From Tubulanus polymorphus (Eukaryota; Nemertea; Palaeonemertea; Tubulaniformes; Tubulanidae), in the NCBI RefSeq assembly GCF_964204645.1, contig NC_134034.1, positions 434,001 through 498,000 on the forward strand: 64,000 nucleotides of DNA, given 5' to 3'. Positions 24,343 through 58,400 of this stretch are shown here, in pieces. Every line of letters starts with the position of its first letter. Positions within the stretch are counted from its first letter, which is position 1. Position numbers and translations under genes: made by a program. The notes under the pieces are model-generated. The model made no database searches, was not told the origin of the DNA, and saw nothing but the letters and a program-made list of their open reading frames with translations.

Positions 24343-24678
24343 ATGTCCTCAGCTGGTTTAGATGTCGGTCTGGTTTATTTTCAGATGTCCTCAGCTGGTT
24401 TAGATGTCGGTCTGGTTTATTTTCAGATGTCCTCAGCTGGTTTAGATGTCGGTCCGGTTTATTTTCAGATGTCCTCAGCTGGTTTAGATGTCGGTCTGGT
24501 TTATTTTCAGATGTCCTCAGCTGGTTTAGATGTCGGTCCGGTTTATTTTCAGATGTCCTCAGCTGGTTTAGATGTCGGTCCGGTTTATTTTCAGATGTCC
24601 TCAGCTGGTTTAGATGTCGGTCTGGTTTATTTTCAGATGTCCTCAGCTGGTTTAGATGTCGGTCTGGTTTGTTGGTTT
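24343..24678 (+). repeat. 42-bp repeat array carrying ATG and acceptor-like sequence at the SNX13 start
   Basis: Seven full units and one partial unit, each reading ttattttcag/atgtcctcagctgg and gtttagatgtcggt. Because 42 is a multiple of three, the whole array is open in the SNX13 frame and would add 14 residues per unit. Every unit also offers a pyrimidine-rich AG followed by ATG. A degenerate unit precedes it at 24291. Confidence 0.95.
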
Positions 24679-27600
24679 ACTCTAGGATTAGGATTATGTG
24701 GTGCGACGTTTGGATTAACAGGAATAACGTTCATTATTGTAATGAGCGTTACTTTCATTGTTGGGTGAGTTATTCTGTGATGTCATAGGGGGATTTATAG
24801 AGGCAGACATCTTTTCTAGAAGTGTCTATAGATCAAATCACTAGTAGTCAATTTGATGATGTCATAGGGGGATTTATGGAGGCAGACGTCTTTTCTAGAA
24901 GTGTCTATAGATCAAATCACTAGTAGACAATTTGGTGATGGGGGATTAATGTAATCAGTATTTGATGATGTCATAAGGTGATTTAATGAAGGTAGACATG
25001 TTGTTTTGGTGATATTTTACAGAATGTTGACAAGTATTTATCACTACAGCTCCGAGCGTTGTGACCAAGTGGATCAATCTCCGAGGAGACATCCACCTAA
25101 ACCACAACCGGGATTTAAAAAGGTAAACTTACACTCCTCAACCCGGTTCCAGTGAGTTGTGAGTTAACTCCTCGACCCAGTTGTGAGTTAAGATTTGAAT
25201 CACTGAAAATGAACGAATTTTAACTTGCAGTCACAATTCACAATTGTGGGCGGAACTGGATCCTGCCGCAGTGGTTTATATTAGTTAAACTCTTATTTTT
25301 GTAGTTGATCGATGAAGTGACTGCGAAGAAACCGATTTATAAAACAGATAAACGTTTGACAGGAGCGAATATGATCGATGAAGTTTTACAAGATGTAAGT
25401 TAAACATTCAAAAAAATATTTATATTAAATTCCTGAACCCAACCGCCTGAACCCAACAGCCTGAACCAAGTAGTCTTGAGCCCAACAGCCTGAACCCAAC
25501 AGCCTGAACCCAGTAGCCCGAATCTGGTAGCCCTGAACCCAGTAGCTTGAGCTAGGTAGCATGAACTCGGTTTTAAGCTTGTGTTAATCCGCAGACTGGT
25601 ATCAACTTTAACCCGGGTTCCACTCAATTCATAGTCAATTAGTTCCATAAAATGTAAACCAGTGTTTAAGTTAATACCAGTATTACACGGGTTGGTTATG
25701 TGTATTTGTAGGTTTTACAATACGCGTTCCGTGATTTCATTAATTCCTGGTATCGACGAATCAGCGAGAACGAAATATTCCTGAACGAAGTCCGACAAAC
25801 TACCCAACAAATAGTGGTAGCGTTCGCCGAGCGGTCGAAACAGGTGGATTGGGTGTCGTTCACGACGAGGAAAGCTGTCGACGACGTCGCTTCGCATTTA
25901 AAACTTTATCGCAAATCGTGCGAAAAAATAAACGAATTGAAAAAAGACGGTAAATATTCAAATTTCGAATTTAGCCGACGTTTTAAACTGTTGATATTAT
26001 TGACGACGTTGTCGTGTAGGGTTGAAACCGTTGCCCGATTTGGAGGCGATATTTTTCGATTTGGAAACTGATATGGAGGACAATATGTGTCGGGATCATA
26101 TCTGTCTCAATCGCGACAAAGAACAACGTAAGTTACCGTAGCAACAACTCGAACATCAGCGTCTGTTTCTAGCGGACAATTGTAGATGTAACGCTGTTTG
26201 TTCTATTTTTAGAATATTTGGCTGATTTGTCCGAATTATTGTTGTTTCTGCTGTTGCCTAGAGATGATTTCAATAATAAACCATTCCGTTATATTTTAAA
26301 GGTACGTTTAAAGCGGGGCAGGAATTCAAGGGTGTTAATTTCCGGGTCCTGCACCCCTTCTAGATCTGTCCTTAGAACTGTTGCGCCCCAGAGTCAAACT
26401 GGTCAAACATATTCTCTGGTTATTTCTTTTTGCAGGAAGTTTTAGTGACTAAAGTATTTTTACCGACTATAGATATGTTATCAGATCCGGACTACGTTAA
26501 TCAGACTATATCATGGCTTGTAAGTAGTTAACCACACAATGATAGGAGTTTCTGTATCCATGGATCCTGTTTCCATGGGTCCTGTATCCATGGTTTCCCT
26601 GTCTGCGGTTGAATCTGATTTGTTCTATATTTCTAAGTGTAAAGATTTCGCGATCAGCACCGAGATGTTCATGACTGTGATTAAAATGACCGATTGCGTC
26701 GACGAGTTGACAGCCGTTAAAGAGAAAGTTGACGCGGACATCGTGCGTCAACGTTCGAAGGATACGGGCGGAGATGATGGTAAGAGATACTAGAGGGTGC
26801 TTGAATTCCGGGCTACACTAAACCTCGCAGCCTAACTCCGACTACTGGATACTCTGGCTACAATGAAGTATAAATCAGACACATAACTCAGAGCGGCAGA
26901 GACCGGCGCTAGATTTGGTGCATCAGAATTTGTTACTTAAAACATTCAAGAATGTCTATAAAGCCAGGTCCAGGATCCAGTCACGAAGTCGTCACTTCCA
27001 AAAACTGTCTTTACGCTTGTCTTAACTTGTTTGATTGACCATAGAACTGAGATTCATCTTCAATTTTAAATCTAAGCCATGACTATAGAACGAGCCCCTG
27101 ATTATTTTCATTTGAATGAATTGAAAGTTGATACTTCTAGGAAGGATGAAACTTCTAGGAAGGATGAAACCAGGGCCTGGTTTCATTGACCGGTAATAAC
27201 TTTAACCTGTGGGCTAACTCAATTCATTTCCAGTTGAGTTAACCCCCGGGTTAAAGATGATACCAGTCTATAAAACTGGGCCCAGGGCAGGGAGAGGTAT
27301 GAAACCCGGGCAGCATGCAAGAGAAGAGAGAGAGGGATATAACTAATTGTCAAGTTGTATATGTGTATTTGTAGATATACTCATTAAAGCTCAACTCAGT
27401 TCATTGCATCACGTGAAAGAAGTTTGTGAATATAAGATACAGAGATTACGAGATGGAAATGAAGACACTTTAGAATCGGTAATTCCATTAATTACTCTTA
27501 TTCTATTTTCCTGTTAAACCAGAATTTCAAAATCTTCACCACATATTTAATGTAGTTTGATGTCATGATTATCGAGTTTGTAAATATGTTGAAATTCTAC

Positions 27601-30600
27601 TTACTGATAAACTGCAGAGGAGAGGTTGTTGGTAATCCTAATCCTTTAATCTCGTATATCTGAAGTATTAATCCTAATCTTGTAGCTCAATTAATCCAGG
27701 TTCGATTGATTTTTCAAGTAAATGTGGTTTTGATCAGGCAGTAATGCAGGCCGGTGGGTACACTGTACTAACTGCTGGTATATACTGTCTATGGGTCTGT
27801 AGATCACTGTGTAGTGGACCATGGTCAGTCAGTGATTGAGTAACTAACTGACTGACTCTCAGTCACCTGACACCTCCACCTGTCAATTAGGGTTAGCCAG
27901 TGGCCAATCTAGCCCTAAGGTTAGGGTTAGCTCCTCCCACCAGTAACCCTAGGTTTCTGATTGGCTGACAACTGGGTGGGACACCTATTCATTGCCCAAT
28001 GCTGAATATTCAATGTAGGTTTTGATGAAAATGAAGCAATTTAGAGTGAAAGTCCTTGTGCTATATTTCATTTGAAAGGTCCAGGGAGAGTTTTGAAGGG
28101 TCCTAGGAAAGTCTAGAGGGGTCCTGGGAGTCTTGAAGGTTCTAGGAGAGTCTTGAAGGGTCCTGGGTGGGACCAACAAGACTCTAGAACAACTTTGAGA
28201 AGGATTGTAATATAACCAATGATGAAACACTTAGAGTTGAATGAAAATATAAAATTCCACATAATGAATAAAAAAAGATTAGTTTGTAACAGTTTCGCTG
28301 TTTCGCCCTGAGTCTGTTTTACTTGATGAGTCTCTATGTTCTGGATTGTAAATATAGTGTTATAACTCTGGATTCACTGGATAAATGTGAATTTTGATTA
28401 ATATTTTTCAGCTTGATTTTACGAAGTTGATCGTTCCCGGTCAGAAGTTGTATTCGTTACCGTTTGATGCCGTTTTACGCAACAATGTCGCGTTAGATTG
28501 TTACATGGGTGCGTGTTACCGGGCGTGGATTATACTCCGTTCATTCAAACACTCGTCGTACTCTACTCTAGTTTATATAATATTCACTAACATTACAGTC
28601 AAACTGTGGAACTAGGTTCAGGAATTTAAAGAGGCCAGTTGCACCATTCTTAGTAGGGGATCATTCATTTATTACGTTTAAAATTTGAATTTTTCAACCC
28701 CCCACCCCCTCTGTACGCAAAATCGGCCATTTTCTCATATACATTAAGCATTACAGTACGCAATTGCACTGACCCCTCCCCCCTCCCCTAATGCGCACGT
28801 AATAAATGAATGACCCCTAGTCAGTAACCTGTTTGTGGTTTAGTTTCACGACCGGATATTTTCACAAACCACATTGGTGGGTATAAGCCCATCCAATTAT
28901 AAAAAGCTAACCACCAATGATTAGGTAACTAACTACATTCTTGGCTGAGTTAGATTCAAACAGTTAAAATCAGTTTGTTTCAAATTCAAACAGCTCTCAG
29001 AACTGCGAAATTGTAGTCGTGTTGTTTAGAATATTTTAAGAACAATTTCGAATAAATTCTATTTTCTAATTTCAGAGTTTCTCACGACTATCGGCGCACA
29101 GGGTTATCTATTCTTCTGTTTTCATTGCGATGTAAGTACGCCCCCTATCCACCTGCCGCGTCTGCTCCCAACAGTTGACAGTTGAATTTGAATTTTAAAC
29201 CGATGTTTTATATTTGTATGATTTTGAACGTTAGGGTTTTCGTTCGATGGTTGAACAGCAAATGTCCGACGTTCATCAAAAACGTTTAAATAACGTTCAC
29301 ACAGAAATAGACGTGGAAAGCATTCGTAACATGGCTTTCTCAATCTATGAGCAATATCTCTCTGACAAGGTAAATCATCCATCCCTCCCTCTAAGCAATT
29401 ACTTATCCCTAAATCATCCATCCCTCTACACAATACTTATCCCTTTACTACTGAAAACTTACAAAGACACATGTCCTGAAATTCCACCCTAATCTACCTA
29501 ATCTAAGGAACCTGTCCTCAGGTTTCTTCCTTCTAGGGAACCTGCTCCCAGATTTCAGCTAGCACTTAAAGGTTGTTGTGTATTTCTGCATCTAACAGTT
29601 CCAAAAGAGGGGTGCAATGTATTCAAAGGAACAACATCTTAGTAAATAGAGCCCTTCGTGGTAACTTTCAATAGATAGCTGGTCACCATTCACACAGTTA
29701 AATGTATACCTTTCTAGGGTACCCACCGGCTAACTCACACAGTTAGTGATATCTCTCTAGGGTACCCACCGGCCGACCGGCCACACAGTTAGTGATATAT
29801 ATATCTCTCTCATTATTTTCAGTCATCTCAAAGAATCAATGTCGATGACGCGCTGATTAAACGAACGTACGAACGAATTAAAAACGGAAATTCTTACGTG
29901 GATGTTTTTGATGAAGTCCAAGCGAGGGTAAGGGTTACAGCTCTAACCACCACCGTCAAACTTAAACCACAATAAGTGTACACAAAAAGTAGTTTTAAAT
30001 CATAAAATTAGTCGTAAACTGTAAGATTGAGTATAGAATTGAGAAGATCTTACACTGGACTTTAAGCCATAACTATACATATAACCACTGATCTCATCAC
30101 CTCACTAACTGAAATATTTGTTGTTTTTTTTTCCCTCGGGGACGCGACAGGTTTACGACAAATTACAAGAAGATCATTTGTTCGTCGCGTTTAAAAAGAG
30201 TCAGAAATACATAGAACTTCTCGCTGAGTTGGATCTGTTGGAAGAAACGAGTAATTCAGATAATGAGATAGGTACGTGTGAACTCAGGGGCAGACGGGCG
30301 AAACATGGCTGACCTCTATAATCACCCTATAACATCATTAAATTTATCTATGAATGAAGCCTAGAAAGAAGTCTCCTCCTAAAAATCCCTCTTTGATATC
30401 ATCAAATTGTCTACTATTGATTTCATCTATATAAGGTTCTAGAAAAGATGTCTGCCTTCATAAATCCCCCTATGACATCATCAAATTGTAAATTGTATTT
30501 TGTAGAAGATTTCCCGTCTATACCGAGCAGTGTTAATGTAAGTATACTGAGTCGGACCGAGTCTAAACCGTGTTTAAACTCTCTTTACATTTTGTTCTAA

Positions 30601-36135: not shown

Positions 36136-39100
36136 GCCATTGGTGAAAATGTAGATATCTTTAATCGGCCTGTGTCTTAAAAACTGATATTCACTTGTAG
36201 CAGAAACCATTGGGGGGAATGGGGGGTCGGTCGGGAGGATGGGGGGTCGGGGGATATCTCGGGAAAGGAAATTCTCAAAAACAACATTCATTCCGCGGTA
36301 ATTATTTTAATAAGAAAAATGAACCAACTGTAAAAACGACAACAATTGTAAAACATATTTTAGCTGATGTTTTTAATGTATAGTTTTATTGCATATCAAT
36401 CTGTAAATCGTTGAATTATGTGATTATTAATATTAATATTAATATTATTTGTGGCCAGTTTTGTAGGTGCTTTGAGAAATGTCCGCTGGGTTTGGTTTCA
36501 CTAAAAAAAGGTTAAATTCGAATTTTTGTCGTAATCGCTATTGGTTACTTCATTTTGTCGATGAGGACAACAATTCATACTTAAACTGTTTTAAGTTGAA
36601 AGGTTTTTGCGAAACGAGACCCTAAACGAGAGAAGCTCCGGTTTAGAATGTTTTAGCTTCTGTTTTATTGTATTTATACAAGATATTCAATAGTTTTCAA
36701 TACGTGATGAATTTCAACTCATTTCGGGATTGTCGATATTTATCTTTAATCGCGTTGGCGAAACTCAGGGTTTTTACAGATCAGGGGATTCCAGATTCAT
36801 TTTTCCCTGTTGGTAAAACTGGGGAAATCTGACTTTTCTTGAAACTCTAAGAAAAGTCAAGGAACTTAAATTTTTGTTAAAAAAACCCCCCTGAAAATAT
36901 CTTATAATTCGAACAGGGAATTTTGGTCAAGAATCAGAAATATCGGGACATTTTAAGATTCTCTGATCTGTAAGAAGCCTGGTAATTCGTCTGGTTGGTT
37001 GCTATGGTTATTACTGTGATACGTGCGTCTGCCAGTTCGAAAACGATGATAACATATAAGAATCGTCGTCATAGCAACATTTATTTGATTTTAGATATTA
37101 TTCGGGTCGTTGATGTCGGTTGAATTCAAATATCGCGATGAATTTCGATTCAATTAATTTTTTTTTCTGAAAATCGATTTTAAAAGATCTTCGTTGATAT
37201 TGTTCGTCGGTGTTGTGCATGTAGAAACCTCGTCTAGAAGAGATATGTCCGCCTCCTTATAATCACCCTATGACATCATTTTATCGGTAACCAATTCGAT
37301 CAATCCACGTAGATGATATGATGATGTCATAGGTGGAATCACGGAGGCAGACATATTTTTCGGGCAGGGATTGTGTATGATTAAGTTTTTCAGAGTATTT
37401 TATTTTTGCATAATATATGAAATTGTGTAAGGATAGGGGGGAGTAGGGAGTAGGGGGGAGTGAGGCCGAGGGGGGGTTACATGCGTTAGTATGTATAACC
37501 AGCCAGTATGACCTACCAGATAGAAGCTTACACGAATTCATGACTTAAATTAATTCAATCATTTTGATTATGAAGTACTTATAATTAATAGGAAGCTTAC
37601 AGTGGCAAGTGAGTAATATTGTTCAGTTTCCACGAGTGATATTTGTATGATACGTGTATTTTATTCATTTCCTTCCATGACGTAGAAATTTTCTCACTGA
37701 ACGTGAATTAATTGTTCTTAAAATGGAAGCATTTTGAGTTTTGTTAATGTGGGGAGATATTCAACAGCAGTTTCAGGGGGGAGTGAGGGAGCTGTGTGTA
37801 CTAATGTATAAAACCATATGGATGGAAGGGAGGAAACACCGGGGGGGGGGGGGTGAAGATTAGAATAATGTGATAAATCGAAGACCTTTTAAAACTTATG
37901 ATTGTTTTTAGAATTCTGTTAGGTTAACTATAGCTTTAAACACAAATTGAGATTGTCTTGGCCTTAGTATTTGTTTATTGTAAGGTTTGTAATTTGTTTG
38001 GCTTTACGTGAATCTAATTAACCCTTTCCATGCGGCTACCTATCATTAGTGGCTATTTAAAATATATGTACTTAGAGAAACACAGAGTCATCTATCAGGG
38101 GTCCTGTGGGGGTTACAATTCCAGAGTCAGGGGGTCCTGTGGGGGTTACAATTCCAGAGTCAGGGGGTCCTGTGGGGTTACAATTCCAGAGTCAGGGGGT
38201 CCTGTGGATTTACAATTCCAGAGAATCAGTTGGTTAACTTCAGTCCACGTGTCTGGAAACTAGGAACTACCTGCTGCCATGTTTTGTCATACGGTGCACC
38301 ATTAGGTAGTACAGTGTACGGTGTACCATAAGGTAGTACAGTGTACGGTGTACCATTAGGTAGTACAGTGTATGGTGTACCATTAGGTAGTACAGTGTAC
38401 GGTGTACCAGTTTTGAGAGTACCGGGTATAAATATATGTATGGGTATTTTGTGAGGGGGGGGGGAGGTAAACTGGCTGGAATTATTTGTTATAAGAAAAT
38501 ACATGTTTACTGCACACATACTGTAGTCAAAAATGTTACAAATAAAAAATTACTATTTCATGTAGGTTAGTCTCATTGTTTCCTTCGTGGTACCGATATA
38601 CACCAGCTGCACGATTTCTGGCCTTTTCGGACACCAGTGCCGTGGATAAAGCCTCTCAGGACACTGGCACCCCTCAGCTCAGGACACCATCAGCCCCCTG
38701 GACTTAAACCCATTGAAAAGAAGCATGAGGCACCACAGTCAATAGGGCGTTAAAAGGTTCCACAGCAGGTCAACGAGCTCTTCAACAGCAACCCTTCCTC
38801 GATATAAAACCCTAAACCGACGTTACAAACAGTCTCTGTTGTATTTACACAATTTATTCGGATTCTTATAAACAAATATCACAACAGCTCAAAAACGGTT
38901 CACAATATTACGTACAATACTTCTATATATATTTACATCTGAGTTATAAAGCTTTCGTTCGTTTTTCAGTTTGTGAGCGAATTTAAAACAAAAATATATT
39001 CTCACAAAAAATACTGTCTCTCTTAAACGATATCGACGGGTATTCAAAATAACAAATGATTTCATTCACGAGAATCTCGACTAGATTATCGATATCTAAT

Positions 39101-39430: not shown

Positions 39431-42400
39431 CTATACAGTATTACCGGAGAGTATTTGCTGACGACATCCACCGACCGTAACCGTGCGAGGACACTCAATA
39501 ATGTCGACCGTTTCGTTGTCGAGGTCGCCGTATTCGGCGAATCGGTAAAAATACGGTAAATCGTAAAATAAATGTTCGCGGGTGACGTGATGTAGAACAC
39601 GCGATAGAAGCAGACGTCGTCCGTACGCGATCGCTTCCATTCGTCCGGACGCCAGTCCAACACGCAGTAACCAGTCCACTAAATCAGTACCAGTGAAAAC
39701 ATTCCTATACAACCGAAATCTATACCTACAAAATATATATATATATATATATCAATTCATTCTAAACATTGTTCACACACAATGACATCACAGGACCTAG
39801 TCACAACACCTGGGTCCAGTTTCACAAAAAAGATTAAGGCCTAAATCGATTTTAGATGAACTGAATTAATGAAGAAAATAAATCGATTTAAGAGTTAAAC
39901 CTTTTTGTGAAACTGGGCCCAGGGCTCAGACCTTGGGCAACAACACCTGGGCTCAGACCTTGGGCAACAACACCTGGCCACAGGACTAAGTTCTTGGTTA
40001 AAATTTGGCTCTCACCGCGGAACTGGGTCCCAGAGCCAGTCCACTGTGGAACTGACTCGGGTCCCCAGTTCACTGTGAAACTGGGTCTTGGGTCCCCAGT
40101 CCACTGTGGAATTACTGGGTCCCAGAGTCAGTTCCACAGTTACTGGTATAGATTTGACCTTTGAGTTATAACATTGGGAATGAACTAATTCTCGTAGCAC
40201 ATCTCAAATATAACAGACACTCGTCAGAATCTGGAGTCACATTTTAGTTTTGGTTTTTCATGTACTGTAGTGTGTGTTTTAAGTGTATAAGTCGTTTGTT
40301 GAAGCAAAAAATAGAAATTGAACCAAACATAATAAATCTAGGAGCAACATAAGAATTTAGACACCTTGTTTGATATATGGAACCTGATATAATAATAAAG
40401 CAAGGATGAACCGCAGTGAACCGCTGTTAACCGCAGTGAACCGCAGTGAACCACAGTGAACCGCAGTGAACCGCATACCCCAAACATTTAAACCCTTTAC
40501 AAATCATCCATTTATTACACAGGCCCCCAATTACACCGTGGGTTTACTCTCAACCTAGTTCCACAGTTGTGTGGGTTTACTCTTGACCAAGTTCCACAGT
40601 TCAGATGTGGATTCGACCCCAAAGTTCCACAGTTCAATCGTGGATATTTCTCCACCCGACCTTGCACGTCTCTACGTACCGGTAATAAATGGATGATGCT
40701 TAAACCAGAAACATAGAGGAGTTTTTTTTAGTTGCGTTTAAAACATTTACCAAAATATCGTTTCTCAATTTTGTATCTCAGTCATCTCAATAACTGCAGT
40801 TTCCCTAGTTTAAAATATATTCATTGAGAATAACTCGATCTGAGCAGACGTTGTTACGGTATCGTCAACAGTCGCGTCGGTTGAATTTAAATTTTACCTT
40901 TTATCGGCGACGATTTCCGCTTGACAATTGCTCAGATGATATTTCTTAAACTGATCTCGCGTTTGCGTAATCTCCGAGTCCAAATCTTCTTCCTGCGGTA
41001 AATGTATCTCTTCGACTCCGTACCAGAACCTGCGCCACCTGGTGACGAATACGAGAATTATTAAAATTGTCTTTCCGTGCGTCTTACTTTCTAAATTCTC
41101 CCAAATAGTTATGTAATGAACATATAATAACATCAAGTTTTAAGATAATTCTGTAAATTCGACCACCGATCACCCAACTATATCTTAACTTCAAATCAAA
41201 TGACCTGTTTCACTCCTGGCAGGTGCGGTGCTTCCAACCAAACTAAGTAACAGGTTCAATTATTATTTCAAGATAATATCTAAAGAAACTCCTATTCCCC
41301 TGCCAACACTTAGTGACCTTGACAATGAAGAAGGGAACTCACCGTTTAACGAATGGAAGAATAATTAAATCGGTGTCCAGACCAAACGTCACAAATACAA
41401 AACAACTCTACAATAAACACATGTGAAATATAGCATCCAATCAAATTATAATTGAGCTATCTTAATCACAGGTCATTAATTACTGATTGTTAATTACCTG
41501 CCCAAAATTAAAAGCGGCATCTAGAAATTCTAATTCTACATAAACTCCACCCATCACTTCATTAGACATTCTCCATATACACAACACTATACCCTGTAAA
41601 ACATATATACAATGATGTCATAGGGGGATCTATGGAGGCAGACATCTTTTCTAGAAGTGTCTATAGATCAAATCACTAGTTGGTATAATTTGATGATATC
41701 ATAGGGGGATCTATAGAGGCAGACATCTTTTCTGGAAGTGTCTATAGATCAAATCACTTAGTAGACAATTTGATGATGTCATAGGGGGATTTAGGGAGGC
41801 AGAGATCTTTTCTAGTAGTGTCTATAGATCAAATCACTAGTTGGTAATTTGATGATGTCATAGGGGGATTTAGGGAGGCAGAAATCTTTTCTAGTAGTGT
41901 CTATAGATCAAATCACTAGTTTGAAATTTGATGATGTCATAGGAGGATTTATGGAGGCAGAGAGAACACTTACTATAAACATGGACAGTATAAGCAGTAG
42001 TATAAGTACTAAATGTCTGGTGAGTTGATATTCAGAGATTCGTTGTGTGACTAACTCATCTCCCAGAATTCCACCAACAGACGTCTGCAGGTTATATCGC
42101 CTCAATCTCATTATACACAGACGTCGCTGTTCCTGCGAACAGTTCGTTTCTAATAAACACGTCTGCTCCTCGAGCGTCTGCCCGTTTACACTAACGACGC
42201 CGAATTCAGAACTACACGACGAACATTCGCTACTGCTGCCACCTGGTGTTAGTTTACACTCCACGCTGGTAGACGACGACGGCGGTATTGTTGCGGATGT
42301 CGCCGTGGACGCGGCAGCTCCGTACGTTTGTCGTTTGACGCCGCGGGATTTCGGAAGTGTCGTATCAGGAACTAAATCTTCGATACTTTTTACTGAAATA

Positions 42401-45400
42401 AAGTTAAAACGATTTTCGATAAATACCGGTAATAAAGAAACTGGATCCAGAACTGTGGAAGTGGATTTAGAGTGGAAGTAATCTGTGAATAATTATCTTA
42501 TAACTCACTTGGACTTTCACAGTTATCACAGTCATTACAATCACCGGCGCCATCTACTGGACTATTGATAGCAGACGGACAATTTCTCCCGGCGGGAGAT
42601 CGGATCAGTTTCGTCGAATCGAAAAATTCGTCATTGTCGTCGTGGTGATGATGTAATTTATTGCGGTCGTGACGATGTTGTATGACGAGGCAACTGATAG
42701 CGGTAACCGTACAGATAATCAATATCACCAGGGATACTATACTCTATAGTAGATACAGATAGATATCATCATTGATTAACATAAATTTGCATAATTAAAC
42801 AACCAATATCGATAGCACATCCATAAGATAATGAGAATCCCGTAACCTCAGATATTAGTCGCAGCAAACACATGAATCAGCCGCCCCTTAACCTGGCACC
42901 AGCTGGATGAAAGTACTGTCCAGGAAAATTGTAAGCCCAGTACCCGGTCCCACAGTTGTTAGAGTTAAAATTAGTTCTTTTTCAATGAGTTAAAACTCTG
43001 AGTCAAATCTTAACTCACAACTGTGGAACTGGGTCCTGATGATCAAAAGCTCCCCCTTCTATTAACAGCCCCCCTCCCTCTGAGACACATACCTGAACTT
43101 CTCCATATTGGAAGAGCATATCACCTAAATCTTCATCTTTCCTCACAAACATCAACATTACTCCAGTTATTATAGTCGGCAATCTGTAATCAATCAAACA
43201 AGTATTCGTAGAAATTGAATATTCAAGTCACTGTTGTTTCGTTAGTCGGTTATGATTTTAGTTTTACCCGAATCCGAAGAACATCATCCAAACTCGCAGA
43301 CGCAGAACGCAACAGAGACTGCGTACGCGCAACAAACAAACGGCCATAGCAACCATCGCCGTCCAGCAACGAGCACTCATTGTTCCGATGAAGAACAGTA
43401 TGAATTGTATATAGTGCTGCCACATAACGGTGGAATCAATCGCGAATACTAGAATCATTCCTATACACGACACCCCCTATAACAGATACAAACAACCAAA
43501 CTGATAAATCAGTGTATTCCTTACTAGAGAGGGGAGGGGAGGGGAGGTGAGAGGGGGTGAGAGGGGAGGGGAGAGGGGTGAGAGGGGAGGTGAGAGGGGT
43601 GAGAGAGAAAGGGGAGAGAGATGGAACGGAGAAGGAGGAAGATATTGGGAGAGGGAGAGGTGGGAGGGGAGAGAGGAATACATGAAGATTGAGAAGGCAA
43701 GAGAGGAAGAGAAGATATGAAGACTGAGATGGGATAGAAAGAGAAGAGAGGGTGATAGATAGAAAGAGAGATGGAAGAGAGAGGAGGAGAGCAGGAAACT
43801 TACCTGAGCAATAACTAAACAGAAAGTCATTTGATGTGGAATATTCTTAAAACGTCTGTTTAAAGTTAAAACAATTATCACCCAAAACTGAAATCAATAA
43901 AGTATCGATATCAATACACACAGTTGTATAATAGAGGAACTATCCCTGGCATGCGTGGGAGAGACCGACTTACGCAACAAATCAATCCTAGAATGCTGAT
44001 GTCGAATGAAGTAGTTTTGATGGTTTGAGTGTATTCCTCGGAGGATTTCTGAGATAACGTTACCATATTCGCTGAGAGGAACATGAACGGTGCCGAGATA
44101 AACGTACAAACAACCATTCCAGACGCTATCTATAAATAAAATACAAACAACCATTCCAGACGCTATCTATAAAACACAAACTAATACTCACTGTTCGCTA
44201 CAACTAATAGTGCTCACGGGCCTGAGACTTCTGGATCCAGTTCTACAGTTCTGGATCCAGTTCCACAGTTCTGGATCCAGTTCTACAGTTCTGGATCCAG
44301 TTCCACAGTTCTGGATCCAGTTCTACAGTTCTGGACTCAGTTCCACAGTTCTGGATCCAGTTCCACAGTTCTGGATCCAGTTCTACAGTTCTGGACTCAG
44401 TTCCACAGTTCTGGACTCAGTTCCACATTCCTGGACTCAGTTCCACAGTTCTGGATCCAGTTCCACAGTTCTGGATCCAGTTCTACAGTTCTGGATCCAG
44501 TTCTACAGTTCTGGACTCAGTTCCACAGTTCTGGACTCAGTTACACAGTTCTGGACTCAGTTCCACAGTTCTGGACTCAGTTACACAGTTCTGGACTCAG
44601 TTCCACAGTTCTGGATCCAGTTCCACAGTTCTGGATCCAGTTCTACAGTTCTGGACTCAGTTCCACAGTTCTGGAGCCAGTTCCACAGTTCTGGATCCAG
44701 TTCCACAGTACAGGATCCAGTTCCTCAGTTCTGGATCCAGTTCAACAGTTCTGGATCCAGTTCCACAGTTCTGGATCCAGTTCCACAGTTCTGGATCCAG
44801 TTCCACAGTTCTGGATCCAGTTCCACAGTTCTGGACTCAGTTCCACAGTTCTGAACTCAGTCCCACAGAATTGGACCCAGTTCTACGGTTCTGGGTTCAG
44901 TTCCACAGTTGAAAGTAAACTTAACTCTGAGTTAAAATCAGTTCATTTTCATTGAACTAACTCTGAGTTAATTCTTTACTCACAACTGTGGAACTGGGTT
45001 CTGGACTCAGTTCCACGGTTTAGACAAACATATCTATATATTGACTCACCAGGTCAGTAACGATGTTATACTGCGTTGCGTATATAAACACAGTCGGAGC
45101 AGACGGAATCGTACCGTACAGAAATCCAAACGAACTCAACTCATCGGTGATCGTGGAATTCGCTCCGGCGTCAAATACAATCACAAACTCACGGATTATA
45201 AATGGTAGTAATACTCTGTGTGAAAATATCAAATAGAAAATACAAATTTACGATCAGGGAATTGACGATCAAAGGGATAAAATCAGAGCGTTCTTCGCGT
45301 GAGGTCAGCGGAGGAAGACTGCTACCCCATTAATTTAACATCCATCACTTTAAAAACCTGCTGCCCCAATAGATGAGTTGATGTCAATATTCTATCATTG

Positions 45401-47737
45401 CTTACAACAACAATTGCATTTGAAGCTTAATTTTCAATATATCAGAAGCTTAGCTTTAGACATCCGATCTTACGCGCCCCATAAAATCCCAGCATATGGA
45501 GAAAACAGCGTATGAGCAACGGACAGGGATTGAATGAGGTACTTACAGTTTAGCGAATATGAGTAAACTAGGTGTAATAAGAGCTGTACCGAGTTGAGTC
45601 TGAACTTTACCAACAAGTGACAAACCAAGAAAGAACAGAGCTGTAGCGCTGAACGAATTAGCTGCAAAACAAATGTGAAATCTGATGATGTCATAGGGGG
45701 ATTTATAGAGTCTGACATCTTTATATCAGTGAATATAGATGAAATCAATGGATGATGTCATAGGGGGATTTATAGTCGGACATCTTTTTCTAGTAGTGAA
45801 TATAGATGAAATCAATGGATGATGTCATAGGGGGATTTATGGAGGCAGACATCTTTCATAATGGGCTTATATATCAAATGAAAAAAAAGATAATAACCAT
45901 ATGATGTAATAGGGGGATTAAAGGGAGCTCTATGAGTGTCTATAGATCAATTTGATGATGTCATAGGGTGAAACTACTAACCGAGTACAACGAGTATTCC
46001 GCTGATGATATTCGGTATGTTGTGATGGAAGATGAAATTCGCAATAATACCGACGATCGTCATGAGAACGATCGGGTTTAAAACGACTCCTCTAACGACG
46101 TGTAGAATAATCGCTCCGGTCCGTCTGCTCGTCGTAGTGGCACCATCTGACGACGACGACGCTGTTCGCTGATGATCGATCTCGAGTAACGTGAAACCAA
46201 TCGGATTTAGAATCATGAATGAGATCGGAGCAGCGAGGTAAATATACTGCAGGAAATCTGGGTTAGACTGTTCATATAGAGCTTGTACTGAAATATACCC
46301 GTGTAAACACTACTGTGATGTCATAGGGGGATCTATGGAGGCAGGCATCTTTTCTGGAAGTTCCTATAGACCAAATCACTAGTAGACAATTTGATGATGT
46401 CATAGGGGGATTTATGGAGGCAGATATCTTTTCTAGAAGAGTCTATAGATCTAATCACTAGTACACAATTTGATGATGTCATAGGGGGATTTATGGAGGT
46501 AGACATCTTTTCTGGAAGTGCCTATAGATCTAATCACTAGTAGACAATTTGATGATGTCATAGGGGGATTTATGGAGGCAGACATCTTTTCTAGAAGGGT
46601 CTATAGATGAAATCACTAGTAGACAATTTGATGATGTCATAGGGGAATTTATGGAGGCAGACATCTTTTCTAGAAGGGTCTGTAGATGAAATCACTAGTA
46701 AACAATTTGGTGATGTCATAGGAGGATTTATGGAGGAAGACATCTTTGCTAGAAGTGTCTATAGATCAAATAACTAGTAGACAATTTGATGACGTCATAG
46801 GGGGATTTATAGAGGCAGACATCTTTTCTAGAAGTGTTTATGAGATAAAATTATTAGTAGACAATTTGATGATGTCATAGGGTGATGTAATGAAGGTACT
46901 CACTGATTGGATAACCGAGTGCGAAGTCGTTGCTTTGCGTGGCGAATATCGCGAATATTCCAGCTTTCCCCAAACGGTTCAAACGCGTTAAAATTAACGT
47001 GAAAATAATCACTAGGAAAAATACGATTGATTTACCGATCAGTAAACTAGACAGGAACTTCCAGTTTACAGCTGAAAACATAATACAACATCATCATCAG
47101 CATTTCATCAGTTCAATCTGGAACCAGTTTCACAGTTTAATCTGGAACCAGTTTCACAGGGTGGCGCCCCTTTCCGCCCATTTATAAATACCCTTGGGCC
47201 GGTTGTATAGTCATGGCTTACATTTGAGACCAGTCCAAGACCAACTTAGTTCTATAACCAATCTAACAACCAGTCATAAGATTTAAGACCACTTTTGGAC
47301 TGGATGCATTGACATGGCTTAGATTTAAGACAAGTCTAAGACCAACTTAGTTCAATAGCATTATTTCCAGGTTTTTGGTAAAATTTGTCACATTCCCTTA
47401 AAGTTTTCTGCTATTTCTCTGATTCACTTAGTTTTTCCAGGTCAATGGTCTCCCCGCGACGACTTAATGCCAAATTCACTAAATTGCGGATTCCGGACTT
47501 ACTTTCAAACTTCAATTCGATCATACTCTTCAGGACTAAAGCCGGTAGAGCGAACTTTGAGATAAACGTTCCGATGCCTTTCGATTGGTTGCTGGAAATG
47601 AGGTTGAACCTGCCGGCGATGTAACCGGCGAGAATAATGAAGAAACACTGCACGATCGCCGGGTAAAGATTCTCGTACGCGTGGCCGCCTGATCGGTCGT
47701 GGTGATGACCGTGAGATGGCTTAGCAACCGAATCCAT
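39431..47737 (-). CDS. GPR155: GPR155 / LYCHOS, lysosomal cholesterol-sensing transporter-GPCR-DEP protein
   Basis: A lysosomal multi-pass protein combining a PIN (auxin-carrier-like) transporter fold, a GPCR-like helical region and a C-terminal DEP domain; the vertebrate protein senses cholesterol and signals to mTORC1. Coding exons in transcript order: 47737-47503, 47071-46904, 46287-45982, 45661-45547, 45215-45050, 44129-43974, 43887-43804, 43476-43268, 43183-43093, 42743-42509, 42392-41974, 41593-41498, 41407-41343, 41038-40898 and 39725-39431. All phases close to 926 residues. Residues 1-400 form the transporter part (GTFISKFALPALVLKSMIEL; SNDFALGYPI). Residues 400-780 hold further helices, with a Ser/Cys-rich loop before DLIILPFVKR. 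DEP lies at about 829-905 (FTGTDLVDWLLRVGLASGR). The start ATG follows a 5' UTR piece ending at an acceptor (47759). Three introns consist mainly of 79-bp repeats. Confidence 0.95.
39812..39920. mobile_element. Family B palindromic MITE-like element
   Basis: It begins GGGTCCAGTTTCACAAAAAA and ends with the inverted CTTTTTGTGAAACTGGGCCC. Inner arms are aatcgattt/aaatcgatt. It is followed by a 32-bp direct duplication (gctcagaccttgggcaacaa). Confidence 0.8.
40408..40475. repeat. 10-bp tandem repeat (gaaccgcagt)
   Basis: Six to seven copies of aaccgcagtg in a GPR155 intron. Confidence 0.8.
41605..41965. repeat. R79 array making up a GPR155 intron
   Basis: Four to five units of 76-79 bp fill nearly the full 380-bp intron (41594-41973). 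The last unit stops within 10 bp of the minus-strand donor. Confidence 0.92.
42944..43036. mobile_element. Family A palindromic MITE-like element
   Basis: Ends GGTCCCACAGTTGTTAGAGT and CTCACAACTGTGGAACTGGG are inverted, with gttaaa arms and a ttcaatgagt centre. It lies in a GPR155 intron. Confidence 0.75.
43525..43800. repeat. GA-rich low-complexity tract
   Basis: Purine-rich (gaggggagggg, agagagagg) intron sequence on the plus strand, hence pyrimidine-rich on the GPR155 sense strand directly after a donor. Confidence 0.85.
44104..44175 (-). repeat. Duplicated acceptor and exon edge in GPR155
   Basis: The first bases of exon 44129-43974 with their acceptor (ttatag/atagcgtctggaatgg) are repeated 37 bp upstream. 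The duplicate would add 37 nt and shift the frame if used. Confidence 0.85.
44228..44880. repeat. 20-bp tandem repeat (ggatccagttccacagttct), GPR155 intron
   Basis: About 33 copies with period exactly 20 bp, varying mainly as gactcag/gatccag and ttccac/ttctac. It abuts a family A element (44885-45001) whose end has the same sequence. The long plus-strand frame through it is an artefact. Confidence 0.95.
44885..45001. mobile_element. Family A palindromic MITE-like element beside its derived satellite
   Basis: It contains gttcagttccacagttga, ttaactctgagtta, cattttcattgaact and the closing ctcacaactgtggaactggg. The left end merges into the 20-bp array. Confidence 0.7.
45676..45972. repeat. R79 array making up a GPR155 intron
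   Basis: Four degenerate units in the 320-bp intron 45662-45981. The array begins about 15 bp from the acceptor and ends about 10 bp from the donor. Confidence 0.88.
46313..46892. repeat. R79 array making up a GPR155 intron
   Basis: Seven to eight units with period exactly 79 bp (cores at 46393, 46472, 46551, 46630, 46709) fill the 616-bp intron 46288-46903. This is the most regular array and defines the consensus. Confidence 0.95.
47196..47350. mobile_element. Family C palindromic element, degenerate
   Basis: It starts GGGCCGGTTGTATAGTCATG, followed by gttctataaccaatctaac and gaccacttttggac. The right end is partly duplicated. Confidence 0.6.
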
Positions 47738-49421: not shown

Positions 49422-52400
49422 ATGATTGACGGACAGGAAGTAGCCGGTGGTCTCGCCGGTGACCAGGCTTCCTTTTACATCGGAGGTGGAGAGGTAAGTG
49501 TTGCAGGGTGTGGGTTGAGAGGGGGTTGCACAGTCCACAGACTGAGAGGGGTACAGGATGAACGGCTGATGTAGATCCTGGTTTAGGGGGCTGAGTGGAT
49601 CCCGGTTTAGGGGGCTGAGTAGATCCCGGTTGAGGGGCTGAGTGGATCCCGGTTTAGGGGGCTGAGTAGATCCCGGTTGAGGGGCGGAGTGGATCCCAGT
49701 TGAGGGGCTGAGTAGATCCCGGTTGAGGGGCTGAGTAGATCCCGGTTGAGGGGCTGAGTAGATCCCGGTTTAGGGGCTGAGTAGATCCCGGTTGAGGGGC
49801 TGAGTAGATCCCGGTTGAGGGGCTGAGTAGATCCCGGTTGAGGGGGCTGATGTAGATCCCGGTTGAGGGGCTGAGTAGATCCCGGTTGAGGGGGCTGATG
49901 TAGATCCCGGTTGAGGGGCTGAGTAGATCCCGGTTGAGGGGGCTGATGTAGATCCCGGTTGAGGGGCTGAGTAGATCCCGGTTGAGGGGTCCAATCAATA
50001 TTTTATTCTGTATATTTATTTTAAGGATCAAGATGATGATTGTAAACGTAAAGTTGTTATCGGAATTTGTGCAATGGCTAAAAAATCTCATTCTCAACCG
50101 ATGCGCGAGATTCTCGAACGTCTCGAGAGGTTTCCGTACATATCGATACTGGTATTCGATGAACAGGTCGTTTTGAGTGAACCGGTCGACCGGTGGCCGG
50201 TCGTCGACTGTTTAATATCGTTCTATTCGAAAGGGTTCTGTTTGGATAAAGCTATAGAATACGAGAGACATTGTAAACCATACGTTATCAATGATTTACC
50301 GATGCAGTATCAAATCATGGACAGGTAAGTTTGTATTAGATCAGTTTTAAAAGTGTTCGCGGTGATGAGAGAGTGTTGTCGAGATATTAGTTTTAAAAGT
50401 GTCCCCGGTGATGAGAGAGTGTTGTCGAGATATTAGTTTTAAAAGTGTCCCCGGTGATGAGAGAGTGTTGTCGAGATATTAGTTTTAAAAGTGTCCCCGG
50501 TGATGAGAGTGTGTTGTCGAGATATTAGTTTTTAAAGTGTCCCCGGTGATGAGAGAGTGTTGTCGAGATATCAGTTTTAAAAGTGTCCCCGGTGATGAGA
50601 GAGTGTTGTCGAGATATTAGTTTTTAAAGTGTCCCCGGTGATGAGAGAGTGTTGTCGAGATATCAGTTTTAAAAGTGTCCCCGGTGATGAGAGAGTGTTG
50701 TCGAGATATCAGTTTTAAAAGTGTCCCCGGTGATGAGAGATTGTTGTCGAGATATCAGTTTTAAAAGTGTCCCCGGTGATGAGAGAGTGTTGTCGAGATA
50801 TCAGTTTTAAAAGTGTCCCCGGTGATGAGAGAGTGTTGTCGAGATATCAGTTTTAAAAGTGTCCCCGGTGAGGAGAGAGTGTTGTCGAGATATCAGTTTT
50901 AAAAGTGTCCCCGGTGAGGAGAGAGTGTTGTCGAGATATCAGTTTTAAAAGTTCCGGGTGATGAGAGAGTGTTGTCGAGATATCAGTTTTAAAAGTGTCC
51001 CCGGTGATGAGAGAGTGTTGTCGAGATATCAGTTTTAAAAGTGTCCCCGGTGATGAGAGAGTGTTGTCGAGATATCAGTTTTAAAAGTGTCCCCGGTGAT
51101 GAGAGAGTGTTGTCGAGATATCAGTTTTAAAAGTGTCCCCGGTGATGAGAGAGTGTTGTCGAGATATCAGTTTTAAAAGTGTCCCCGGTGATGAGAGAGT
51201 GTTGTCGAGATATCAGTTTTAAAAGTGTCCCCGGTGATGAGAGAGTGTTGTCGAGATATCAGTTTTAAAAGTGTCCCCGGTGATGAGAGAGTGTTGTCGA
51301 GATATCAGTTTTAAAAGTGTCCCCGGTGATGAGAGAGTGTTGTCGAGATATCAGTTTTAAAAGTGTCCCCGGTGATGAGAGAGTGTTGTCGAGATATCAG
51401 TTTTAAAAGTGTCCCCGGTGATGAGAGAGTGTTGTCGAGATATCAGTTTTAAAAGTGTCCCCGGTGATGAGAGAGTGTTGTCGAGATATCAGTTTTAAAA
51501 GTGTCCCCGGTGATGAGAGAGTGTTGTCGAGATATCAGTTTTAAAAGTGTCCCTGGTGATGAGAGAGTGTTGTCAGTTTGATTTAATTGTATTCTCTGCA
51601 GACGGACGGTTTATAAGATTCTACGACGAAACGGAATCCCGCATCCTCGATTCGAAATTCTGAATCGTCGCGAAGACCAACCAGGAAGTGAGTACACTGA
51701 TCTAGTAGTACCCTAATACATCCTCAGAGTACCCTAATACATCCTCAGAGTACCCTAATACATCCTCAGAGTACCCTAATACATCCTCAGAGTACCCTTA
51801 TACATCCTCAGAGTACCCTTATACATCCTCAGAGTACCCTAATACATCCTCAGAGTACCCTAATACATCCTCAGAGTACCCTTATACATCCTCAGAGTAC
51901 CCTTATACATCCTCAGAGTACCCTTATACATCCTCAGAGTACCCTAATACATCCTCAGAGTACCCTAATACATCCTCAGAGTACCCTAATACATCCTCAG
52001 AGTACCCTAATACATCCTCAGAGTACCCTTATACATCCTCAGAGTACCCTAATACATCCTCAGAGTAGCCTAATACATCCTCAGAGTACCCTAATACATC
52101 CTCAGAGTACCCTTATACTCCCCTCACTGAAGATCTGTATTATTTTCAGCTTGCATTCCCGGATGTTCATTGGTTGAATCCGATGATCATATCGAGGTCA
52201 ATGGCGTCGTGTTTCACAAACCGTTTGTTGAGAAACCGGTTTCCGCTGAGGATCATAATGTATTTATATATTTCCCGACAAGCGCTGGTGGCGGCAGTCA
52301 GAGATTATTCAGAAAGGTGCGTGCACGAACAACCAAACACCTGAATAGGGACACTTTAAAGTTAACGTAAAGTTTTTGAAAAGTTATTAATCCTTGTAGA

Positions 52401-55400
52401 AAAGATGTCTACCTCCATAAATCCCCCTATGACATCATCTAATTGTCTACTACTGATTTGATCTATAGACCCTTCTAGTGTCTGCCTTCATAAATCCCCC
52501 TATGACATCATCAAATTGTCTACTACTGATTTGATCTATAGACACTTCTAGAAAAGATGTCTGTCTAAATAAATCCCCCTATGACATCATCTAATTGTCT
52601 TCTAGTGATAAGATCTATAGATACTTCTAGAAAAGATGTCTGCCTCTATAGATCCCCCTATGACATCATAATGGTTGTAAGTTATCTATTACAGATTGGT
52701 AGTAGAAGCAGTGTTTATTCACCGGTCAGTCGAGTCAGGAAAACTGGGTCGTTCATTTACGAGGATTTCATGCCGACAGACGGAACCGACGTAAAGGTAA
52801 AAACCGGATTCGGACTTCATCTCTCGTACTAGAGCCAGTTCTACAGTCCAGTACCAAGTTCTAGTGATTGAACTGCAGTAGCTGTTGAAGCTGGTAATAA
52901 TTGAACGGTTTCTCGGTTACAGGTATATACAGTAGGACCGGAATACGCTCACGCCGAGGCTCGTAAATCTCCGGCCCTCGACGGTAAAGTCGAACGCGAC
53001 CACAACGGGAAAGAGGTTCGTTACCCGGTGATACTCAGCGGACCGGAGAAAACAATGGCGCGTAAAGTCAGCCTCGCTTTCACTGTAAGTACTACGACAT
53101 CTAGGGAAGGGTTGATTAAGAGCAAGTGTCTATATATGTCTCTCTCTCTCTGCGTTTCAGCAAACAGTTTGTGGTTTTGATTTACTACGAGCGAACGGAG
53201 AATCGTTTGTCTGCGACGTCAACGGTTTCAGCTTCGTTAAAAACAGTCAGAAATATTACGACGACTGCGCAAAAATTCTCGGGTGAGTTGAACATTCTCA
53301 AGTGAGAGTTTAACATTAATCAGGTGAGAGTTGAACATTAATCAGAGGAGAGTTGATGATTCTTGGGTGAGAGTTGAAAATTCTCGGCTGAGTTTCACTT
53401 TGATTAAGCCACTAGTAGAACTGTTATTGTTAAGGCATTGATTTGATTTTTAGGAATATGGCAATGCGTAAAATGGCGCCACAATTATCGATACCATGGT
53501 CAATAACGTTTCAGCCGGAGGATATACCTATAGTACCGACTACTTACGGCACAATGTACGTCTCAAATATCAATATCGAATCTCAAAATGTGACGAGTAG
53601 TTTTAAGAATTTGATATTTTACCCGTTACATTGTGGTGATATTTCAGGATGGAATTGCGTTGCGTAATCGCTGTTATACGTCACGGAGATCGAACCCCGA
53701 AACAGAAAATGAAAATGGAGGTCAAGCATAAAAAGTGAGTGAAATATAACACGATGGCGCCACTTACCCGGTGATCAGGGAGAAGTTCGGGAATCTTTCT
53801 TTTCATTAATTAAAGTCTGGGAATTTTGTAGAAAAGCTGAAAATCAGAGAAATTTGTTGAAATCATGGGTGAAATCAAACAGTATCCATTTATGTTTTTA
53901 TATTTGTGTTAATTGATTGGATTCTGAGTAGATCAGGGAAAACAATGTGGATGTCAGGGAATAATCGAGTCGAAATAAAGTGGCCCCCAAACCGGGTCCT
54001 ACTGGTCGTGATTGTTGATGTTTTGTAATTTTTGCTTTTTCTCGATAGATTTTTCGAACTATTCGAAAAATATGACGGCTACAAGAACGGCCATCTTAAA
54101 CTGAAACGGCCGCGTCAGTTACAGGAAGTACTCGATATCGCTCGGTCGTTGCTAGCGGAGATCGATCAGAACTCGGCTCCGGAGATTGAAGAGAAACGAT
54201 CGAAACTCGAACAGTTAAAGGCCGTTCTAGAAATGTACGGACATTTCTCCGGAATCAATCGTAAGGTGCAGTTAAAATATCAACCACAAGGTCGTCCGCG
54301 AAGGTCATCCAGTGACGACGGTACGTTGTATTTCACATGAATCCCCCTATGACATCATCGAACTGATACTAGCCTTTGTACTATTTATCCATCTAGAAAA
54401 GATGTCTGCCTTCATGAATCCCCCTATGACATCATCAAATTGACTAATAATGATTTGATCTGCCCTTCTAGGAAAGATGTCTGCTAGCATACATCCCCCT
54501 ATGACATCATTAACAAATAGGCAACTTTGCAATTTGATTTATACTGGTGTAGTAGATCTTTAGACCCATACCGGTCTATCGATGATGTCATAGGGGGTAT
54601 TTAATGCCGGATTTTAGTGTATTCTACTATTTTACAGACAACACTATTTGGTGGAGCAGTACTAGTGATGATGGTATGTCTATTGTCTCCGCTGCAATCA
54701 ATCAAAACTCAACCGAATAAACAACAATCACTTTTTTTCGATCTTCGCTTTGCGTGCTTTTTATTTTATCGATCCTAAAAATTCAGTCAATTTTCTTTCT
54801 TAAATCTAGACCTGGTTTTAGAGAGATTTTACGGACAGTAGCCTAACTAAAATAGATCTAAATTCAAGAGCTTTGTACCCCCTCCTCTGATCATCATTAT
54901 CACAGGATTTGATCTTTCTTGTAGTGGAACTAGTGTTCTACTGTTGAGCTCAGTATGGGCCAGTCGTCAATAACTAGAATATGCTTAAACTGGTCTTCAA
55001 TCTAAACCTGACTGTGCAACTGATGTGAAATTCAGATACTTAGATTAAATCTTGACTTCCGAACCCGAGTCAATTGCTCAAAAGTTGCTTAACCATCAGA
55101 CCGAAGTTACCCCTTGGAGTAAACCCTTTAACCAGGGCCAATTTTTCATAACTCAATCTTGAGTGAGTTCCACAAATACCATTGTTGCAATGCTATTTCA
55201 ATCATTACTATGGCATTTATACACTTGTTAAATTTAACCAACTTTTGAGCAACTGCAGCGCCCCCTGCGTGACAACCACAAACACCGTAGCGTAACAATG
55301 ATAAACTATGGTTATAATTGATGATTCCCAGAGATTATTTTGGCCAGATATCCATTCAGTTTTAATCAGTTTTATCCCCTGGTTTAATTCGAACCCGTTT

Positions 55401-58400
55401 TTGAGAGTAACTGATTCTAATTTCGAGAGTGATATTTCTATGTATTTCAGATTCTCCTCGTGAGCCGTCGTTGGTATTGATATTGAAATGGGGCGGTGAA
55501 TTAACGCCGGCCGGACGCGTACAAGCTGAAGAACTGGGCAAAGCGTTTCGTTGCATGTACCCTGGCGGTGAGGGTAAGAATTAATAGACATATATCATAC
55601 CGTTTACGCATTGCCACATTGTTATCGCTACGGCAACCGGCATATTTATTTAAACGGAAAGTTGCGGTCCACGGCACACGAGAGTACAAGAGGTCAGTTT
55701 CACCTTGGAATTATCAAATGATTACTCCAAGGCTTCACAGACGAGATTTAACACCGGTTTAAGCTCATTTTAGTTCTACGGCCAGTCTAACGACGTTAAG
55801 ACCAGTCTAAACATAGTTTTCTTACTAATCTTACAAATTCAGACCAGTGAAACATGTGTTGGACTGTGAATCGACCCCTCTCCGTTGTGCTGTGGGTTTT
55901 TTGAAGTTCCTCTATGCCGGTTGTCGTCTAATAAAGCACTTTCTACTAGTGTGTGATGATTTCTCTAATAAGCACTGCCGCCGGAGATGATGATGGCTGA
56001 CATCTTGTTTTTGAAGTTTTGCCCCATTACACTAAGACTTCACCAGTCTTTTCTGCAATGCAACTAATAGTCACATCTTCCTTACTAGATCTGTTGCTTT
56101 CTATTCAAATATTTGACTGGGGGGGGGGGGGGTAAGGGTAAGGGGAGAGGTAGTAGCATCACTAAGTGAAGACTTAGATTTAAGACTAGTCGTAGTCTGT
56201 CATGATCTAATGTGGCACTTAGGGCCTAGTTGCACAGTCTTGACTTAAAGTCCAAAATGGTCTTGAAATCTTAAGACCTGTCTTAAGTTCCTAGATTAGG
56301 TATAGAAGTAAGACTGTCTTAGACTGGAGTTAAATCCCGTACAGCTGAGCCCCTGAATTCAAGATTTTAAGTCTATTCAAAATCTGAAACCAGAACTAGA
56401 AATGAGAAATGCAGAAACAGTTTGGCAATGTTCAAGAATTGATATTGTCTGTTAAAATTCTTTTGAAAAAAGTGTTTCTTTTATTCGAAATGTTTTGCAT
56501 GAATTACGCTATCGTTGTTACTCGCTGCTCCCTGGCAAACTGAAACTATTAAATACTCGCTGCTCCCTGATACTTATATTAATGAAAGTGTTATTGGTGG
56601 AATGGAATAGTTTGAATTTAAAATCTTTAGATTCTGCCGATGAATTGATAGCTGGACGTATTTAAAAAAAAGTTTTTTTTTGGGAGCGCGGCCTTCAGTT
56701 ATCCATGATTTAGTGTTGGATTTATCGTTTTATCACAGGCGACTACGGACATTCTCCGGGACTCGGGTTGCTACGGTTACACAGTACGTATCGTCACGAT
56801 CTGAAGATTTACGCGTCCGACGAAGGTCGTGTTCAGATGACCGCAGCAGCATTCGCGAAGGTAATCATCATCATTTCTCCGCTCGCCGGGAGCGGTCAGT
56901 AGCATGCAAACTGGTGCCACCTGGTGGATCCCCACTTGCCTCAAGTGGAATCCTCTATTGCCGCAGTAGTTGATGTCCTACTGCACACTAGCGACACCTG
57001 GTGGATCCTCACTTGCCACACGTGGAATCCTCTATTGTCGCAAATGTTGATATCCTACTGCACACTAACGACACCTGGTGGATACTCTATTGCTTGATTG
57101 GTGGATCTCTCTCTGATTGGAGTGTTTGTATTATTTTGCAGGGTTTGCTCGCTCTCGAAGGTGAATTGACTCCGATTCTAGTTCAAATGGTAAAATCAGC
57201 GAACACGAATGGTTTACTGGACAACGACAATATCAGTTTATCTAAATATCAGAATCAGTAAGTTCTTCCACTAACGAGATACACAGCAGGTAGTGGACGG
57301 GAAAGTGGAAATTTGTTTAAATATGTCATCCATTTCCGGGTATTATTTCGTTTTAAGTGAATTGAGAGAAAGAAAAAGTTGCGATTTTTGGAAAAATAAA
57401 ATTGTCGTTTCTACATAAATTTGTGAATAATTTCAGAACGGATGATAATAGATTCATGTATGTATCTAGAATGCACTTGATTCTCATTAGAGATTTGTTA
57501 AGGATGTGTAGTGATAGGGGAATGGGGGAGGGGGTGTATAGATTGGGAGTGTGGGGAGTAGTGATAGGGAAGAGGAGTGTGGAGTAGTGATATGGGGAAT
57601 GGGGGAAGGGAGGATTGATGGGGAGTGGGGGAGTAGTGACAGGAGTGGGGGGAGTAGTGAAAGGGGAGCCAACACAGATCTCCTATAAGTCTCTAGTGAG
57701 GATCGTAATCTTTATAGGAATATCTCAGCAAACTGATTGATGCAATGCATGAGAAACTGGGTCCTGACAAGATGGCCGCTTCCTTAGAATCCCCCTATGA
57801 CATCATACTGGTCGAAGCAATAATTGTAATTCATAATTTCAATGGTATTCTAAGGTATTTTGATGATGATGTCATTGGGGGGATTTATGGTGGCAGTTAT
57901 CTTTTCAGGAATTTGATAATGTTGATGTCATAGGTGGATTTTATGCGGGCAGCCATCTTGTCTGGAAGGCGGGGTCTAGTGCATTTTACTTGTACCGGTA
58001 TTGTACGTCTGCGTGAAACAGAACTATTGTATTTCTACGCCAAAAAAATATCTGAGAAAAGACTTTCGAAAAATGCTAAAATGCTTGTTATTTTCTTGAT
58101 GCAGCGCGAGCAGACGTTCGTCAGCGGACGTGAAAATTGTTTCCAGAAATTTAAGATCATTCAGGCCCTTTTTAATTGTGCTCTCCTAAAATAGAAATAA
58201 TTTAATATCACTTTCAATTATACTGTGTTCGAAAGTTTTGGCCCTAAATCTTACTGTTTCTGGTCGCAACAGAAATTTCCCATGGAGAATAATCTTCTGT
58301 TCGAGCCCAATTGAAAAGTGCCTTAATTATTTGCATGTGTACAAGAAATTCTGCTTGTCTATGTGTTTCATCCATTGAGTCATGGCCCCGGGTCACGGCC

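Follow-up and report, generated by a model that had tools for sequence, protein, structure and literature searches.

The window analysed here is a stretch of 64,000 nucleotides (C10:434001-498000 in a 268-Mb assembly) that carries, among others, a GPR155 and a PPIP5K gene. One GPR155 intron is made almost entirely of a tandem array with a 79-bp unit [Table 1]. The intron is of the GT-AG type, with the donor A/GTGAGT at 46903 and the acceptor TTTCAG/ at 46288, and the peptide across the junction (GYPI-I-Q-ALYEQ) aligns without gaps with the solved human GPR155 (GYPI-V-E-ALYQ). On the strength of these splice sites and this alignment, the boundaries proposed in an earlier note on this DNA are exact. 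TRF assigns the array a period of 79 with 7.2 copies and 90% matches. Eight cores are present between 46315 and 46868, spaced by 78, 79, 79, 79, 79, 79, and 80 bp, in agreement with the seven to eight copies at 79-bp spacing given in the earlier note. Self-identity of the array is 0.80 at lag 79, far above the other lags (median 0.27, maximum 0.33), and the periodicity is therefore not due to chance. What remains of the intron outside the array amounts to 17 + 26 nt. The units are arranged head-to-tail and are of constant length, and the family hence falls within the definition of a minisatellite (units of 10-100 bp).

All intron calls are computational predictions. Human PPIP5K2 and GPR155 sequences were used only as guides for locating exons; the exons themselves rest on open frames, splice sites, and matches to Pfam (PPIP5K2_N, DEP) and PDB (GPR155).

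Table 1. Introns and repeat arrays of the window. Slashes mark predicted splice junctions.
Feature	Position	Strand	Description
GPR155 (lysosomal cholesterol signaling protein) intron	46288..46903	-	phase 1, 616 nt, nearly all 79-bp array
79-bp tandem array	46316..46886	+	consensus TTTGATGATGTCATAGGGGGATTTATGGAGGCAGACATCTTTTCTAGAAGTGTCTATAGATCAAATCACTAGTAGACAA; antisense to GPR155; TRF, core scan, lag identity
Terminal core, antisense reading CCCTATGACATCAC	46315..46333	-	candidate branch point TGAC upstream of 3′ splice site
Second GPR155 intron	45662..45981	-	filled by 79-bp family, 67-bp and variant units; TCG/GTTAGT ... TTTTGCAG/C; score 34.3
Third GPR155 intron	41594..41973	-	filled by 79-bp family; ATA/GTAAGT ... 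TTTTACAG/G
PPIP5K intron	52317..52694	+	filled by 79-bp family, antisense to gene
Intron of gene first read as MFSD6-like	24765..25022	+	filled by 79-bp family, sense; score 30.6
Intron of gene first read as SNX13	30272..30505	+	filled by 79-bp family, antisense; score 12.5
79-bp family copies including inverted core pair	54341..54598	.	inside PPIP5K intron 54321-55450
PPIP5K intron, unrelated 46-bp minisatellite	50325..51601	+	96% filled; array 15 and 27 nt from splice sites
PPIP5K intron, unrelated 21-bp array	51688..52149	+	89% filled; array 19 and 31 nt from splice sites

The same repeat had been reported from two more introns of GPR155 and from introns of the PPIP5K, MFSD6-like, and SNX13 genes, in both orientations, and it was recovered in all of them; the names MFSD6-like and SNX13 come from reading the translations, and a Pfam search with the SNX13 peptide gave no match. 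The PPIP5K intron at 57190-58814 likewise contains the family. Two relatives or neighbors of these arrays should be mentioned. At 15388-15702, an array with a 40-bp period has kept the 20-bp core of the 79-bp unit but nothing else of it, the spacer being a different one. Immediately upstream of an exon, a 42-bp array (24309-24670) is open in the frame of that exon (repeated SAGLDVGPVYFQM), and each of its units also has a 3′ splice-like TTTATTTTCAG; this array could be coding or could represent a row of duplicate acceptors.

Other tandem repeats of the window fill introns as well. The 46-bp repeat in PPIP5K occurs at one genomic locus only. The array-filled PPIP5K introns measure 171-1277 bp, and the array-free introns of this gene include ones of 76, 86, 92, and 126 bp. 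Moreover, the other tandem arrays of the window also keep close to splice sites (33% at score 12, compared with 12% for random placement). Since unrelated, local arrays are equally tight, close apposition to splice sites is a general habit of tandem arrays in this region and not the mark of an introner.

Genome-wide, a 39-bp piece of the 79-bp unit has at least 554 matches with three or fewer mismatches, and the reversed control has none. Among the approximately 100 of these 554 places that were listed, the family is found on C6, C8, C9, C10, and C11, mostly no more than a few Mb from a contig end (an exception is C8:9.98 Mb), and on this basis it classifies as a chromosome-end minisatellite. 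An unrelated 20-bp family (TTCTGGATCCAGTTCCACAG and relatives) is present in the window at 44229-44910, 31895-32326, and 61411-61602; it has 1022 near matches genome-wide, and those listed are near the ends of nearly all large contigs. Tandem repeats make up 19% of the window, 0.9-14% of four other distal samples, and 0-9% of eight mid-chromosome samples save two that are rich in satellite. These two 10-kb samples (C5:12.00 Mb and C3:14.00 Mb) consist of 100% and 69% tandem repeats, respectively, and their repeats are candidate centromeric satellites.

To what extent, then, does the 79-bp family make up whole introns? The sample comprised 40 strong array loci, 28 loci drawn from the pattern list irrespective of array length, and 12 sites with inverted pairs. 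An array of at least three cores was counted as a whole-intron array if splice sites of one orientation were present on both sides; the scoring model combined donor and acceptor scores with the requirement that the flanks be open and codon-typical. By this measure, 37 of 78 arrays are whole-intron arrays, compared with 9.0% when the same intervals are moved by 120-200 bp and 13.6% when they are placed at random in the same loci (Fisher p 1e-14 against the shifted intervals). The codon model was trained on the exons of the window, followed by a single round on confident array flanks, which slightly favors the scores of the first set; in the loci not selected by array length the excess is replicated (38% vs 9.8% at score 12), and a scan made before any codon training yielded 44% vs 4.3%. 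The introns belong to different, non-homologous genes. Pfam domains at them include MFS transporter, kinesin, IBR, cytochrome b561, sterol-sensing, and CCDC47, among others, and finer names such as KIF5, SLC17, and SCAP (for a SCAP-like sterol-sensing gene) come from reading the sequence. About half of the sampled arrays have no flanking splice sites. The orientation of the array introns shows no significant bias (22 antisense, 15 sense, p 0.32).

The edges of the arrays are informative. The distance from array to splice site is 6-60 nt on the 5′ side and 15-74 nt on the 3′ side. A search for TSDs at the splice junctions and array edges found shared repeats no more often than in shuffled pairs; neither element ends at the splice sites nor TSDs, as expected for some introners, are seen. 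Inspection by eye revealed no evident homology among copies in the sequences between array and splice site; homology among copies begins near the first core and fades within approximately 20 bp past the last one. The leftover outside the arrays has a median of 48 nt and often totals 24-48 nt, which is too little for an intron unless sequence disappeared later. Leftovers as small as 24-27 nt imply a loss of intron DNA. Small leftovers alone, however, do not require that the array created the intron because an SLC17-like intron that is shown below to be old has just 68 nt outside its array.

The 3′ gap depends on orientation, with a median of 22 nt for antisense and 37 nt for sense arrays (p 0.009). 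Moreover, the TGAC of the terminal core lies 23-45 nt ahead of the 3′ AG in 19 of 22 antisense introns, and TGAC was seen at this distance in none of the 15 sense and none of the 5 array-free introns. This contrast is in part a matter of orientation alone, since only antisense arrays can supply the motif; its informative part is the short and narrow spacing of TGAC. Taken together, the spacing and the motif suggest that the terminal core probably acts as the branch point in antisense arrays.

GPR155 is present in a single copy in the genome and thus offers no paralogs for comparison. The age of an array intron was addressed in other genes. In an SLC17-like gene (Pfam MFS_1), the array intron is 721 bp long, carries nine cores, and interrupts, in phase 1, the codon of the bracketed glycine in SITYS[G]AHMG. 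Twelve diverged paralogs on C2, C3, C6, C7, and C8, whose matched parts are roughly 43-64% identical, share an intron at this residue and in this phase; it is 71-118 bp long in 11 of them and 242 bp in one, and no 79-bp core was found in the six of the 12 that were scored. Two further paralogs were ambiguous (L068) and uninformative (L062), respectively. Because the intron is common to the 12 paralogs, it is older than the expansion of the family, and the array arrived later; in terms of this paralog comparison, the SLC17-like array intron predates its array, which makes it the one intron dated. Absence of the intron at the same position in relatives, as expected for an introner, is therefore not what is seen at this site. 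At the kinesin (KIF5) and IBR junctions, the paralogs are continuous through the site, but these paralogs represent distant families. For the cytochrome b561 junction the genome holds no paralogs, and for an acid-phosphatase-like junction it holds two weak matches only.

Comparison of individual units suggests how the family spreads. Identity is 86.3% within arrays and 83.7-84.2% between arrays, whether on the same or on other contigs, and the nearest neighbor of a unit lies in the same array in 40% of cases (2% after shuffling). These values indicate that units have moved between chromosomes and have also been duplicated locally. Block transposition of several units was considered and rejected: in just 3 of 242 cases did the nearest relatives of neighboring units also follow one another in some other array. 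The core is also found as an inverted pair at 14 genomic sites, some with longer arms that have AAGATGGC-like ends, which hints at a palindromic ancestor. With respect to the combination of TIR and TSD that defines a MITE, there are inverted pairs at these sites and array edges without a TSD signal. In the window, inverted-pair cores at 37262-37337 and 57789-57939 have longer arms (AAGATGGC...ATGACATCAT) and resemble a degraded palindromic element. A duplicated gene pair elsewhere on the contig (C10:12591336-12591882 and 12594636-12595182; loci L090 and L091) has an inverted core pair at the equal place in both copies, just 3′ of the 5′ splice site in what is apparently the same intron.

Which process produced the GPR155 intron? 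We consider it likely that an older spliceosomal intron was overtaken by an array of a dispersed chromosome-end minisatellite. The age of the GPR155 intron itself would follow by analogy with the SLC17-like one. The main competing idea takes up the introner candidate of the earlier note. Here, the 79-bp family would be a mobile element, or the descendant of one, that created these introns by inserting into exons and that supplied or recruited splice sites. Several observations speak for an introner: introns resemble one another across many unrelated genes, array edges adjoin splice sites, leftovers are often below the minimal size of an intron, cores lie at branch-point distance in antisense copies, the KIF5 intron is not common to other kinesins, and some copies have MITE-like inverted cores. 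Against it stand the SLC17-like intron that is older than its array, junctions and array edges without a TSD signal, sequences between array and splice site without evident homology among copies, and the locus-unique 46-bp array that is equally tight. We therefore regard this origin as rather improbable. What stands of the introner suspicion is that one dispersed family makes up whole introns, which is well supported; the part concerning intron creation is not supported, given the old SLC17-like intron, the missing TSD signal, and the equally tight local minisatellites. Repeat-filled introns at old positions, the observation that the earlier note itself had set against introners, are found at the one locus that can be dated, and the alternative it offered, expansion within older introns, is the better fit. 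A variant deserves mention, in which a tandem-repeat family acts as an animal introner: insertion made some of the introns, the core served as branch point in one orientation, and later growth hid the event. We give this variant a similarly small chance.

Finally, a dispersed satellite might insert at random into non-coding DNA, the whole-intron cases being short introns hit by chance. This reading accords with the roughly one-half of sampled arrays that lack flanking splice sites and with the general enrichment of tandem repeats toward chromosome ends. In the same loci, however, whole-intron arrays are 3-5 times commoner than whole-intron cases among equally long intervals that were shifted or placed at random, and the excess is also seen in the loci not selected by length; of the explanations considered here, random insertion is the least probable. 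The strength of the link between one dispersed family and whole introns also counts against a pure takeover of older introns, since a certain preference for introns, or a degree of intron creation, may contribute to it.

A takeover of older introns could have proceeded as follows. The starting point would be the array-free introns of this genome, which are often tiny (about 70-126 bp). The 79-bp family would enter such an intron and expand through unequal exchange or slippage. Meanwhile, dispensable intron DNA would be lost until hardly more is left than the 5′ splice site together with the final tens of bases ahead of the 3′ splice site. In antisense arrays, the terminal core (CCCTATGACATCATC) probably also stands in for the original branch point; the array could then lie approximately 20 nt from the AG. 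Dispersal might occur through re-insertion or gene conversion between loci, or it might go back to an old palindromic, MITE-like source whose arms hold the core.

In this scenario, a sequence common to the introns of unrelated genes need not be what created them: a dispersed minisatellite overtakes old, tiny introns, and the takeover leaves mainly the splice signals, with even the branch point possibly replaced. Screens for introners that are based on similarity could count such cases as intron gains. Moreover, the array introns constitute a natural series bearing on how little of an intron must remain and on the ability of a repeat to provide a branch point.

Introners, or introner-like elements, create introns, and their animal hosts include copepods; TSDs and TIRs are not universal among them (Gozashti et al. 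2022, PMC9860276). The word "tandem" is absent from the main text of that study (PMC9860276), and a similarity screen could therefore pick up arrays such as those described here. As in introners (PMC9860276), one repeated sequence forms nearly the whole intron in many unrelated genes; unlike them, the 79-bp element is a tandem array with gaps of 6-74 nt to the splice sites and no TSD signal, and paralogs show one of its introns to be old. The inverted core pairs at 14 sites recall MITEs with terminal inverted repeats, but no consistent ends or TSDs were found and most copies of the 79-bp unit are direct tandem arrays. Dispersed euchromatic satellites, for example Drosophila 1.688, may re-insert from circles. 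The present family resembles 1.688 in that short arrays of one family are scattered in gene-rich DNA on several chromosomes and in that identity within arrays barely exceeds that between arrays; it differs in that its arrays have the core at their boundaries and lie within introns. Subtelomeric minisatellites, or VNTRs, have units of 20-80 bp arranged head-to-tail in variable copy number near chromosome ends. The 79-bp family is like them in unit size, head-to-tail order, variable copy number, and clustering at chromosome ends, and it is unlike them in being dispersed over hundreds of sites, in sharing one consensus, and in being tied to whole introns.
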